64,000 nt of DNA, taken from positions 57,710-121,709 of the forward strand of contig DAIDHV010000005.1 of the NCBI GenBank assembly GCA_027451905.1. Reading direction: 5' to 3'. The position numbers and the translations under genes are program-made. This DNA is from Armatimonadota bacterium. Lineage in GTDB: Bacteria; Armatimonadota; Fimbriimonadia; Fimbriimonadales; Fimbriimonadaceae. Below, piece after piece: positions 1-44,737 of this stretch; within the stretch, counting starts at the first letter, position 1; each line of letters opens with the position of its first letter. The notes beneath the pieces were generated by a model, which saw only the letters and a list, made by a program, of their open reading frames with translations, was not told the DNA's origin and made no database searches.

Positions 1-418
1 GTCCCTACCCCGTCCTCCTCTGCTGCGCGGCGCTCCTGCGTCTGCTTACTCTCTACTGGGTACGAAGCTCGCGAGCGAATTCTGACCAGCCTAAAATTCC
101 CCTCCTTTCCACCTTGTTGGAGAGGAGGACTTTGGGGAGGAGAGCATAATTTGAACCTAAATTCCCATTCAAATTCCCTAAACCACCCCGCGCCTCGCTT
201 TCGCGAGGCGCACCCCTCCAGCGGAGGGGAATGGATTTCTGCTCTCCATCCCCGGTCCTTCCTCTCAACGCTCCGCGATGAAAGGAAGGGAACCTAAAAT
301 GCCCCTCCTTTCCACCTTGTTGAAGACCCGAGGCTTGGGCACGCAAGAGAAAAGGAATCGAGGCTGGCTCAAAAGAGCCAGCCCCACAAGCCGAAACCTT
401 CAAAACCAAGTTCCAGAC
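1..418. repeat. Gene-free repeat-rich region with hairpins
   Basis: No convincing gene is visible here; the open frames are low-complexity and lack start signals. A roughly 31-base segment at 90-120 recurs almost exactly at 293-322. Two hairpins lie back to back: arms GCGCCTCG at 190-197 and 204-211, and arms CCCCTCC at 213-219 and 223-229. The second is followed by a GGGGAATGG-like tail and resembles the CCCCTCC/GGGG element inside the repeats near 49.1 kb, so it may belong to a dispersed intergenic repeat family. Function unknown. Confidence 0.5.
355..383 (-). terminator. Probable intrinsic terminator of the NRAMP-like operon
   Basis: A perfect 9-bp hairpin, GGCTGGCTC - loop of 4 - GAGCCAGCC, occupies 362-383. 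Read on the minus strand it is followed by a T-rich stretch (TCGATTCCTTTTCTC). It lies about 35 bases beyond the stop codon of the small membrane protein that ends at 419, where that operon should terminate. The T-tract is not continuous, so efficiency is uncertain. Confidence 0.45.
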
Positions 419-39021: not shown

Positions 39022-39432
39022 ATGGATGGAGGTGGGAATTTGCTGGAAGAGGCGCTTCAAATAGCCAAAGAGCGCGGCTATGCAGAAATAAGCTTAGAAA
39101 CAGACGACTTAAGCTTTAGCGCCACCTTAACCGTTCCCAAGAAAAAGCCCGGATCCAAGCCTTTGCAAGACAGCAGTCAAGAAGAAATTGGACCCGAAGA
39201 ATTGGTGGTGAAATCTCATCTTGTTGGGTATTTCCAGGCTCCCAATTCTGGCATTAAGGTCGGCAGCAAAGTGCAGGAAGAAGATGTGATCGCGGTGATT
39301 TCGGTCTTTGGCATTAGTAACGAAATCGAGGCAGGTGCTTCTGCCATGATCAAGGAGATTTTAGTTGAAGATGGACAAGCGGTGGAATATGGTCAGCCGC
39401 TTTTGATTTTGCAAATGGAGACAACATTATGA
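39022..39432 (+). CDS. Biotin carboxyl carrier (AccB)-like protein lacking the biotinylation lysine
   Basis: A 136-residue protein. The C-terminal half is a clear biotinyl/lipoyl domain: FQAPNSGIKVGSKVQEEDVI, then SNEIEAGASAMIKEILVEDG and VEYGQPLLIL, as in AccB. Where AccB has the biotinylated EAMKM, this protein reads SVFGI (residues 94-98), so the lysine is replaced by Gly97. It therefore cannot carry biotin, like plant BADC proteins that regulate acetyl-CoA carboxylase by competing with BCCP. It heads the accC operon. TAAACT lies eight bases before the ATG, a leaderless start; the next gene overlaps its stop by four bases. Confidence 0.85.
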   Translation: MDGGGNLLEEALQIAKERGYAEISLETDDLSFSATLTVPKKKPGSKPLQDSSQEEIGPEELVVKSHLVGYFQAPNSGIKVGSKVQEEDVIAVISVFGISNEIEAGASAMIKEILVEDGQAVEYGQPLLILQMETTL

Positions 39433-39893: not shown

Positions 39894-41255
39894 GTGTTCA
39901 AAACGATTTTAGTTGCCAATCGAGGAGAAATCGCCTGCCGCGTTATCCGTGCCTGCCGTGAGCTTGGCATCCAAAGCGTTGCGGTTTACAGCGAAGCCGA
40001 TCGTGACAGTAACCATGTTTCTCTTGCCGATAAAGCGATTTGCGTTGGAGCTGGCGCCAATGGCGATAGCTATTTGAACCTTGCCAATGTGTTGATGGCA
40101 GTGCAGATATCGGGCGCCGAAGCCGTTCACCCTGGTTATGGTTACTTTAGCGAGCGATCGCACTTTGTGGATGCCCTTTCTAACCTCAACGTGAAGTTTA
40201 TAGGCCCTCCCACCGAGGCAATTGAGGCGATGGGAGATAAAGCAAGGGCGAAGTCGGCAGCGATTGCTGCTCATTGTCCGGTTGTGCCCGGATCAGAGGG
40301 CCCCGTGGCCAATGAAGTGGAAGCCCACAAAATTGCTATGGACATCGGCTATCCCGTATTGCTCAAAGCGGTGGCAGGCGGCGGAGGAAGAGGCATCCGT
40401 AAAGTTGAATCTCAGGAGGAACTTGTAAGAGCCTTTCCCATGGCTGCTGCCGAAGCCCAAGCCAGCTTTGGAAGTGGGGCGATGTTAGTAGAAAAAGCCG
40501 TGATCAAGCCTCGACACGTGGAAATCCAGGTTCTGGGGGATGAACATGGAAACATGGTGTATTTGGGGGAGCGAGAATGTAGCGTTCAGAATTTGCGCCA
40601 CCAAAAAATAGTGGAAGAAGCCCCTGATGCCAAGCTTCCTGATGCACTCCGAAAGGAAATGGGAGAAGCAGCCGTCAGGACTGCCCTTAGCGTGGGTTAT
40701 ACCAATGCAGGCACGGTAGAGTTTCTTGTGGATCCAGAGGGCAAGTTCTACTTTTTGGAAATGAACACAAGGCTGCAGGTGGAGCATCCTGTGACGGAAG
40801 AAATAACGGGTTTGGATTTGGTCCATTTGCAAATTGCAATCGCCAATGGTGCCAAACTGCCCTTTAAACAGTCCGACGTTGCCCTAAAGGGCCACGCGAT
40901 CGAAGCAAGAATAACCGCCCAGGATCCAGACCGGGATTTTGCGCCTTCTACTGGCTGCATAACCCAATGGCGACCACCCACCGGACGCGGGGTCAGGATG
41001 GAAACTCACTGCTTTGCAGGGTTTTCTATCAGTCCGTTTTATGATCCTTTGTTGGCTAAGCTGGTTGTAAAAGGGGATAATCGTGCCGATGCTGTAGCTA
41101 GGCTGCAAGCAGCCCTGCACGATTTTTGCATCGAGGGCATAGCCACCAACTTGCCATTCTTGCGCCGATTCTGCGCAAGCAAAGAGTATGTTCAGGGTGA
41201 GTTGGAAACTTCGCTAGTAGGTAGGTTTCTTTCCGACGGAGACCAAGCCTCATAA
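39894..41255 (+). CDS. accC: Biotin carboxylase subunit of acetyl-CoA carboxylase
   Basis: A 453-residue ATP-grasp enzyme that carboxylates biotin on BCCP, the first step of fatty-acid synthesis. It starts with GTG, FKTILVANRGEIACRVIRAC; ATP-binding KAVAGGGGRGIRKV, LGERECSVQNLRHQKIVEEA, LEMNTRLQVEHPVTE and HAIEARITAQDP are standard. Its neighbours are a lysine-less BCCP-like protein and a pilin-like protein upstream, while the true biotinylated AccB and the carboxyltransferase are not in the window. The next gene nusB overlaps its stop by one base. Confidence 0.95.
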   Translation: MFKTILVANRGEIACRVIRACRELGIQSVAVYSEADRDSNHVSLADKAICVGAGANGDSYLNLANVLMAVQISGAEAVHPGYGYFSERSHFVDALSNLNVKFIGPPTEAIEAMGDKARAKSAAIAAHCPVVPGSEGPVANEVEAHKIAMDIGYPVLLKAVAGGGGRGIRKVESQEELVRAFPMAAAEAQASFGSGAMLVEKAVIKPRHVEIQVLGDEHGNMVYLGERECSVQNLRHQKIVEEAPDAKLPDALRKEMGEAAVRTALSVGYTNAGTVEFLVDPEGKFYFLEMNTRLQVEHPVTEEITGLDLVHLQIAIANGAKLPFKQSDVALKGHAIEARITAQDPDRDFAPSTGCITQWRPPTGRGVRMETHCFAGFSISPFYDPLLAKLVVKGDNRADAVARLQAALHDFCIEGIATNLPFLRRFCASKEYVQGELETSLVGRFLSDGDQAS

Positions 41256-41830
41256 TGGTTGCTTCCCGACGAAAGTCTCGAGAAGTGGCTCTAAAAACCC
41301 TTTACGGAATCGAAATTTCCAACAACCCCAGTTCGGAAGCCTTTTCCGACTCTCTGGAAGAAAACGAACTGACTCCGATGATGAAGGAGTATGCAGAAAA
41401 GCTTGTTTACGGAGTGAGAGGCAACCTTGCCGAACTCGATGCCCTCATTTCGAAAGGGCTTACAAACTACTCTCTAGATCGCCTTGCCGTCATTGATCGG
41501 AACCTACTTCGGGTGGCTGCTTACGAGCTCATGTATCAGCCGGCAACCCCGCCTGCGGTTAGCATTAACGAGGCGGTTAGCCTTGCCAAGAAGTATTCAA
41601 CTGCAGAAAGCGGCCAATTTGTTAATGGAGTTCTTTCTTACGTTTTAGCCCAGTCTTCAAAAGCCAACTGGGATCCTGCCACTGCCCCCAGTGAATTTGA
41701 AGAAGAAGAAGAGATTTATGAAGCAGATTCCATCGAACCAGTTGTTGAAGAGATTGTAGAACCCAATACGGAAGCCGCTGATGAATTTAATAAAGTAGGC
41801 AAGTGGACAATTAAGTTAAATCAACGATGA
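41255..41830 (+). CDS. nusB: Transcription antitermination factor NusB
   Basis: A 191-residue protein whose first 135 residues are the all-helical NusB fold (ASRRKSREVALKTLYGIEI at the start, INEAVSLAKKYSTAESGQFV and NGVLSYVL at the end). NusB binds boxA RNA with S10 during rRNA antitermination. About 55 extra C-terminal residues are strongly acidic (EEEEEIYEADSIEP and so on) and probably disordered. The gene overlaps accC by one base and folD by four, so it is part of the accC operon. Confidence 0.92.
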   Translation: MVASRRKSREVALKTLYGIEISNNPSSEAFSDSLEENELTPMMKEYAEKLVYGVRGNLAELDALISKGLTNYSLDRLAVIDRNLLRVAAYELMYQPATPPAVSINEAVSLAKKYSTAESGQFVNGVLSYVLAQSSKANWDPATAPSEFEEEEEIYEADSIEPVVEEIVEPNTEAADEFNKVGKWTIKLNQR

Positions 41831-42678
41831 GCGCACAAATCTTAGACGGTAAGGCCCTTTCTCAGTTGAGGCGAGTTGCCTTGGCAGAGAGAGTTTCGAA
41901 ACTGCTTGCCAAAGGCACCACCCCTCGGCTAGACGTCATTGTTGCCTCCCAAGATCCCGCCAGCATTGCCTATGCCTCGATGAAAAGGAGATGGGCAGAA
42001 GCAGCTGGAATGAAGGGAGAAAGCTACGAAGTTGGTCCAGAAACCAGCCACAACGAGCTTTTAGAGCTGGTTTTTAGGTTGAACGCAAACACAAACATTC
42101 ATGGTATTTTGCTTCAGCATCCTCTGCCTCCTCAACTTGATGAGCTTGATGCCCTGCTTCATCTTGGGGCAGAAAAGGATGTAGACGGCATTACCCCTCA
42201 ATCTTTGGGAAGGCTGGTCGCCAACATGCCTGGATTTCGGTGTGCAACCCCCCTTGGCATTATCCACATGCTGGAGCACTACGGGATAGATCCAACCGGG
42301 AAAAGGGCGGTGGTTATTGGCAGAAGCGTGATTGTGGGTAAGCCGATGGCGCTGCTTTTGCTGCAAAAGAATGCCACTGTGACCATTGCCCACTCAAAAA
42401 CGGAAAACCTTGCCGAACTGTGCCGCACTGCCGACATCCTTGTGGCGGCTGTGGGAAGACCAGAGTTGGTTAAAGGAGATTGGATCAAACCAGGAGCGGT
42501 AGTTATTGATGCTGGCTACAACAAAGTTGAAGGCAGAAAATTTGATGTTGGCGACGTTGAATTTGAATCAGCGTCGCAGGTTGCGTCTTGGATCACACCG
42601 GTTCCAGGCGGTGTTGGCCCCATGACGGTGGTGACCCTTTTGGAAAATACAGTGGATGCAGCAGAAAAGAAGGCGTAA
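41827..42678 (+). CDS. folD: Methylenetetrahydrofolate dehydrogenase/cyclohydrolase
   Basis: A 283-residue bifunctional folate enzyme interconverting methylene-, methenyl- and formyl-tetrahydrofolate. The catalytic Tyr-Lys motif is in IAYASMKRRWAE (Y50, K54), followed by HGILLQHPLPPQ, EKDVDGITP and the signature VIGRSVIVGKPMA, with DAGYNKVEG and PVPGGVGPMTVVTLLEN near the end. It starts with a 4-base overlap of nusB's stop, and its last 23 bases overlap the next hydrolase gene. Confidence 0.95.
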   Translation: MSAQILDGKALSQLRRVALAERVSKLLAKGTTPRLDVIVASQDPASIAYASMKRRWAEAAGMKGESYEVGPETSHNELLELVFRLNANTNIHGILLQHPLPPQLDELDALLHLGAEKDVDGITPQSLGRLVANMPGFRCATPLGIIHMLEHYGIDPTGKRAVVIGRSVIVGKPMALLLLQKNATVTIAHSKTENLAELCRTADILVAAVGRPELVKGDWIKPGAVVIDAGYNKVEGRKFDVGDVEFESASQVASWITPVPGGVGPMTVVTLLENTVDAAEKKA

Positions 42679-44058: not shown

Positions 44059-44329
44059 AACCAAAGATTATGAAGCAGATGAAGCCAAGAATGTTGTGCA
44101 TGAGATAAAACGGGGGGCTTTCGCCAGTTTTCTACTCGACTTTTCCATGGATGGCTTGGTGGTGCTTTCCCATATTTAGTTGTTGGCGTGAGAATCGGCA
44201 AGGCGAGGAGAGCTTACAAATTTGGCACTTTTTTAAGGAGGCACGCAACTTTACGGGTATGGACTGCGTTCTGACTTAATGAAAGCCCGATTCCTTTTTT
44301 GGTTTAAGAGGCTCTCAAGGTTATCAGCA

Positions 44330-44737
44330 ATGAACATTCATCTCAAGAAGCTCGGTCTTATTCTCATTTTGGTCGCCGCTATCGTTGGGGCATCTTTGGC
44401 GTTTTCTGGCCATGGCCACAAAAAAGTTATGCCTGCAAAGTGCCCTGTTTGTCACATGACGCTTTCTACTCACTGGACCAAGGCAACCCCGGTTGCGGTC
44501 CAGCTTAAGAAAAATGGCCCCGTTTACTACTGTTGCAATAAATGCAAGATGCCAAAATCGGCTCTGTACAAGGTTCCCAAGTGCCCTGTGTGCCACATGA
44601 CCCTTTCTACCCATTGGACGAAAATGACTCCCGTTGCGGTTAGATTGACCAAGGGCGGTCCTGTGCTTTATTGCTGCAAGGGTTGCCACATGCCGGCGAA
44701 GTATCTGGTCCACGTTAAGAAGACTCACAAAAAGTAA
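44330..44737 (+). CDS. Exported/membrane-anchored Cys-rich protein with two tandem CPVCHM modules
   Basis: A 135-residue protein with a signal or anchor sequence (NIHLKKLGLILILVAAIVG) and then two near-identical modules at residues 37-75 and 84-122. Each contains KCPVCHMTLSTHWTK, TPVAV and a CC-xx-C-x-MP end, so each offers five Cys, two or three Met and His residues, like a YHS-type or heavy-metal-binding site. A copper, zinc or other soft-metal role is likely, probably in the periplasm. The ATG at 44330 gives the cleaner signal sequence; an in-frame ATG at 44279 adds 17 residues. AAGGAGG lies about 40 bases before the upstream ATG and is not well placed for either. Confidence 0.65.
   Translation: MNIHLKKLGLILILVAAIVGASLAFSGHGHKKVMPAKCPVCHMTLSTHWTKATPVAVQLKKNGPVYYCCNKCKMPKSALYKVPKCPVCHMTLSTHWTKMTPVAVRLTKGGPVLYCCKGCHMPAKYLVHVKKTHKK

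Follow-up and report, generated by a model that had tools for sequence, protein, structure and literature searches.

The accC cluster and its BCCP-like protein

The window, by which we mean the whole stretch of 64,000 nucleotides that was analysed, belongs to a draft genome of 2.87 Mb from the phylum Armatimonadota, probably of the family Fimbriimonadaceae to judge by the isolate name of a relative, and carries an accB-like / pilin-like / accC / nusB / folD cluster (Table 1). The accB slot is occupied by AccB1, a BCCP-like protein in which the biotinyl lysine is missing. The original prediction placed this gene at the head of the accC operon, which holds, and also just before accC, which does not: the pilin-like gene, whose ATG overlaps the AccB1 stop (ATGA), directly precedes accC. 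Among the loci read across Armatimonadota, AccB1 is linked to accC and often to nusB and folD too. For the pilin-like protein we found no Pfam match above the cut-off and no NCBIfam match; its C-terminal pattern is approximately CPVGGEPYVYDPATGTVxCPHPGHEKY. Elsewhere in the window (44279-44737), a KCPVCHMTLSTHWTK...YCC motif occurs twice in one protein, which may bind metal.

Table 1. Features of the accC cluster, with window coordinates
Feature	Coordinates	Strand	Basis or remark
AccB1, 136-aa BCCP-like protein lacking the biotinyl lysine	39022..39432	+	Open reading frame, profile matches, alignment, predicted structure
AccB1 N-terminal helix/strand region, residues about 1-38			
AccB1 linker, residues 39-60			
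AccB1 biotinyl-like domain, residues 61-132			
GGC codon of Gly97, biotinyl-lysine position	39310..39312	+	Alignment and predicted structure
Pilin-like membrane protein, 152 aa	39429..39887	+	Separates AccB1 from accC in most loci read in the phylum
accC, biotin carboxylase, 453 aa	39894..41255	+	NF006367, 624.8 bits (cut-off 597)
nusB-like	41255..41830	+	Named from sequence; same order in locus L018 and many other loci
folD-like	41827..42678	+	Named from sequence; recurs in many loci

The Pfam model Biotin_lipoyl (PF00364) matches AccB1 over residues 78-130 (E = 7e-11; 42.2 bits, passing the cut-off of 22.1), and the BCCP model TIGR00531 covers residues 10-130 with 60.1 bits, which does not reach its equivalog threshold of 115.2. 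The hallmark of TIGR00531, the biotinyl lysine of the AMK turn, is absent from AccB1. In a profile alignment to PDB 4hr7, the AccB1 stretch VFGISNEIE pairs with AMKMMNQIE of E. coli AccB without a gap, and Gly97 therefore stands where the lysine would be. A model predicted by AlphaFold from a shallow input alignment of 19 rows, made up of the window and related-locus sequences, reaches a mean pLDDT of 84.7 and shows the fold of a biotinyl domain. Its top PDB match is 1bdo, the biotinyl domain from E. coli (1.3 A over 76 columns), and its residues 96-97 lie in the turn between strands 89-95 and 98-103. Both the gapless alignment and the modelled turn bear out the original residue call, SVFGI with Gly97 in place of the biotinyl lysine. 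Its N-terminal region, for which the full-length AccB in the crystal entry of E. coli BC-BCCP gives a match, is still conserved. AccB1 is a descendant of a BCCP.

The gene is also under purifying selection. Estimates of dN/dS were taken from close pairs in family f1, dS being saturated for most AccB1 pairs, and amount to 0.09 (G011/G140), 0.12 (G127/G130) and 0.29 (G008/G036). Mean pairwise identity is 0.41 in the biotinyl-like domain, 0.35 in the N-terminal region and 0.11 in the linker. A pseudogene is ruled out by these dN/dS values together with the invariant glycine and the residues of the relatives described below.

The lysine column across Armatimonadota

The AccB1 protein search gave matches in 59 of 61 genomes. 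In an alignment of 29 sequences from families f1 and f5, the Gly97 column is one of five that are invariant, and no other lysine is conserved. Glycine occupies the lysine position in all 39 family members read and in 51 of the 52 sequences of the order, the remaining one having Thr. The original prediction held that lysine-bearing homologues in close relatives would point to a recent mutation or a read error; these 52 sequences include none, and a recent mutation at Gly97 is thereby ruled out.

Across the phylum, a profile built from the 29 sequences matches in 233 of 237 genomes, a count that pools lysine-bearing and lysine-less copies. Profile score and linkage to accC decided whether a sequence was assigned to AccB1, the accC-linked type, or to AccB2, the unlinked type; for 19 AccB1 the stretch read shows no accC, in some cases because it is short. 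The lysine is missing from 88 of 126 accC-linked AccB1 sequences (Gly 59, Lys 38, Arg 13, Thr 4, and Asp, Asn, Ser and His 3 each), whereas every one of the 86 AccB2 sequences has it (Fisher p = 3e-29 for 38/126 against 86/86, shared ancestry not being corrected for). Some families are uniformly Gly in AccB1 (f1, 39 sequences; f2, 4; f3, 1; f5, 7), f4 has Thr and the five sequences from f41 and f42 have Arg. Mixed residues are seen in f12 (K/R/N), f13 (K/G/D/N/S), f21 (K/R) and f34 (K/S).

On the AccB1 tree, an unrooted tree of a single short gene computed with the motif masked, parsimony requires at least 13 state changes at the lysine column, and lysine-positive and lysine-less AccB1 sequences are interleaved. 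As judged by AccB2, the outgroups and the diversity of replacement residues, the direction of change would be loss of lysine. AccB2 forms one clade (support 98), and AccB1 is unresolved as a single clade relative to other phyla.

Where both genes were read, in 75 genomes, AccB2 is intact in all 75, of which 42 have an AccB1 without and 33 an AccB1 with the lysine. A further 17 Armatimonadota AccB2 sequences, mostly from genomes that a DNA pattern search had missed, all possess the lysine. That pattern search had suggested that AccB2 occurs only where AccB1 has lost its lysine; the profile search found AccB2 alongside either AccB1 state, and we rejected the idea. Three f1 drafts (G013, G134 and G137) gave no strong AccB2 match, perhaps from draft incompleteness.

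The two types differ in their thumb loop as well. Between the marker glycines it has 16 residues in 86 of 86 AccB2 sequences and mostly 11 in AccB1. In E. coli BCCP the thumb is reported to be important, and a shortened thumb would be in keeping with an AccB1 already on its way out of the carrier role. Since the short loop is seen in AccB1 both with and without the lysine, the shortening may predate the lysine loss.

Carboxylase genes elsewhere in the genome and in other phyla

A separate biotinylatable BCCP, anticipated by the original prediction, is indeed present in the same genome: the intact AccB2 (GLIEAMKVFNEV) is located at G000:C11 (L016:9635-10111), unlinked to accC, with homoserine-dehydrogenase-like and fumarase/aspartase-like genes as neighbours. 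The same locus (L016 59-4735) contains a repeated peptide, PDSLRSFPSGGISAIHGSD and variants, within several Rhs-like reading frames. A third biotin protein of 149 aa (LEAMKTQQPM) has an HMG-CoA-lyase-like gene nearby; another contig carries a second BC as well as a carboxyltransferase, probably for an acyl-CoA carboxylase of the MCC/PCC type. The genome has one match for biotin ligase. A 614-aa open frame (G000:C4:81288-82751) matches two parts of the carboxyltransferase profile and may, from its sequence, be read as a fused AccD/AccA with an AccD-like and an AccA-like half in one reading frame.

Genus g29, of the same family, is represented by two genomes of 1.5 Mb (G028 and G141) in which the carboxylase parts found are all MCC-like, namely a BC and a biotin protein. 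AccC, AccB1 and AccB2 were all not found in these two genomes (loci L320, L321, L348 and L349). AccB1 is tied to acetyl-CoA carboxylase by this joint absence, which counts as one event, being seen in two genomes of one genus. A loss of fatty acid synthesis in G028 and G141 is possible.

Lysine-less copies also occur in other phyla. For instance, in the Spirochaetes MAG G243 an AccB without the lysine (KFMGIKHEI; L047 5740-6210) directly precedes accC, and an intact BCCP (VEAMKMMNEL) is found elsewhere in the genome; in its class, two of 30 other genomes match (L326 and L327), with Gly at the lysine place and accC adjoining. The Chloroflexota MAG G245 possesses a Gly-bearing copy (L019 5950-6411) that follows an efp-like gene and is not beside accC, and again an intact copy elsewhere (VEAMKVFNEI). 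Two further loci were observed. One in Spirochaetia (L048 5040-5516) encodes a BCCP-like protein, linked to accC, in which Asn takes the place of the lysine (QSMNLQYEV), and a search of that draft genome for a separate intact BCCP found none. The other, in Elusimicrobia (L051 5833-6228), encodes a divergent BCCP-like protein whose biotin turn reads VVAAAKELKPV, and an intact BCCP (LEAMKVFNEL) is present elsewhere in that genome.

Possible roles of AccB1

AccB1 is, in our view, probably a subunit of acetyl-CoA carboxylase that is not biotinylated, has a structural or regulatory function and would work like plant BADC. This reading is supported by the fold, the missing lysine, the conservation, the intact second copy, the cluster position and the co-absence in g29; the single biotin ligase and the AccD/AccA-type carboxyltransferase reading frame are also cited for it. 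The carrier job would have been handed from AccB1 to AccB2, encoded elsewhere. AccB1, which would be made together with AccC and presumably keeps the BCCP assembly surfaces, may bind AccC, AccB2 or both, and hold or compete for carrier sites on AccC. In this way it could aid the assembly of the BC-BCCP subcomplex, limit its activity, or both, as plant BADC does, with a net effect that may be activating (a glue) or inhibitory (a decoy). The scaffold or regulator proposed in the original prediction is thus backed in part: AccB1 is kept under purifying selection, which makes scaffold or regulator the best reading, the close relatives lack the lysine and the genome has its separate BCCP, while the role itself is a suggestion from sequence.

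A different explanation, which appears unlikely, gives AccB1 a role apart from the enzyme complex: it would autoregulate the expression of accC or report on the status of the carboxylase. An autoregulatory role has been reported for E. coli AccB, AccB1 heads the accC cluster, and its conserved N-terminal region could carry such a role. However, the biotinyl-like domain, needless for a purely N-terminal regulator, shows no less conservation than the N-terminus (0.41 compared with 0.35).

It is rather improbable that AccB1 is instead a partner of the pilin-like protein, for example placing AccC near the membrane, even though that gene sits between AccB1 and accC in most loci and overlaps AccB1 here. 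The pilin-like gene is missing from f30 and from some f13 and f11 loci that retain AccB1. In some genomes a lipobox-like start replaces the helix of the pilin-like protein, a sign that the conserved domain of this protein may be extracytoplasmic and thereby separated from AccB1.

AccB1 might also be a relic: after the takeover by AccB2 the linked accB would be decaying, retained for no other reason than its position in the cluster. The many residues that replace the lysine across the phylum are what would be expected when a single constraint is lifted, but the profile matches in 233 of 237 genomes (lysine states pooled), the dN/dS values well below 1 and the Gly invariant in 29 aligned sequences from two families make this very improbable. 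The chance that AccB1 carries another group, or serves as carrier in a different reaction, seems slimmer still: the fold is retained, but nearly all members of the order have Gly in the turn, and the alignment offers no other conserved lysine. A sequencing or assembly error is refuted by the relatives, as the same lesion is found in 39 of 39 family members, including the MAG FIMBRI1 with the same gene order, and its likelihood is practically nil.

For the favoured subunit reading, one of the closest known systems is plant BADC, in which the biotinylation motif is missing and which interacts with BC and BCCP, described either as inhibitors or as assembly glue (PMC11926652; PMC7712654). AccB1 resembles Arabidopsis BADC1-3 in being BCCP-like without a biotinylation motif and coexisting with an intact BCCP in a multi-subunit ACC (PMC11926652). 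The lysine-less BCCP-like domain and the biotinylatable BCCP in the same genome (75/75 genomes) thus agree with the published BADC descriptions, on which the likeness rests. Unlike BADC, AccB1 is bacterial, occupies the accB slot of an accC cluster and has a shortened thumb loop. We do not class AccB1 as a BADC; that it works like one is our hypothesis. The interleaving of lysine-positive and lysine-less AccB1 on the Armatimonadota tree suggests that it arose independently of plant BADC, which a 2025 paper describes as unique to the plant enzyme (PMC11926652).

AccB1 shares the fold, the N-terminal region and the accC linkage with bacterial AccB/BCCP (TIGR00531; 1bdo, 4hr7), but differs by the absent biotinyl lysine, a thumb of mostly 11 instead of 16 residues and a score of 60 against 115 bits. 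With Armatimonadota AccB2 it has the genome and the domain family in common, whereas AccB2 always has the lysine, a full-length thumb (in those read), a clade of its own and no adjoining accC. Bacillus BLAP (PDB 1z6h) has a small BCCP-type domain as well, but it is modified (the PDB title gives a biotinylated form), has 72 residues and lacks the N-terminal AccB region. The epsilon subunit AccE of the actinobacterial acyl-CoA carboxylase is, to our knowledge, not a BCCP-fold protein. It is likewise a non-catalytic assembly subunit and is mentioned as glue (PMC11926652). A limited search of open-access papers gave no relevant report of a bacterial lysine-less BCCP among the titles listed, and nothing on Fimbriimonas and acetyl-CoA carboxylase.

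About one third of the linked type has the lysine, and a non-catalytic role is therefore not readable from the lysine position alone across the phylum. A wider reading is plausible, if tentative: Armatimonadota and some Spirochaetes and Chloroflexota may operate an acetyl-CoA carboxylase with two BCCPs, one of which (in Armatimonadota the copy adjoining accC) would be dedicated to a non-catalytic role even where the lysine remains, and an unlinked copy would do all the carrying. Such a counterpart of BADC, independent of plants, would help to set the malonyl-CoA supply.

For annotation, caution is required, in that linkage to accC is not enough for naming a gene a working BCCP. Acetyl-CoA carboxylase is the enzyme by which carbon is committed to fatty acids, and studies in plants disagree as to whether BCCP paralogues without the lysine are its inhibitors or assist in its assembly. 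The repeated lysine loss in the accC-linked BCCP of Armatimonadota, beside an intact copy, provides independent replicates of one change, and simple bacterial proteins are on offer for testing lysine-less BCCP paralogues. The finding suggests a non-catalytic subunit for assembly or control, and subunits of this kind have until now been described from plants alone.
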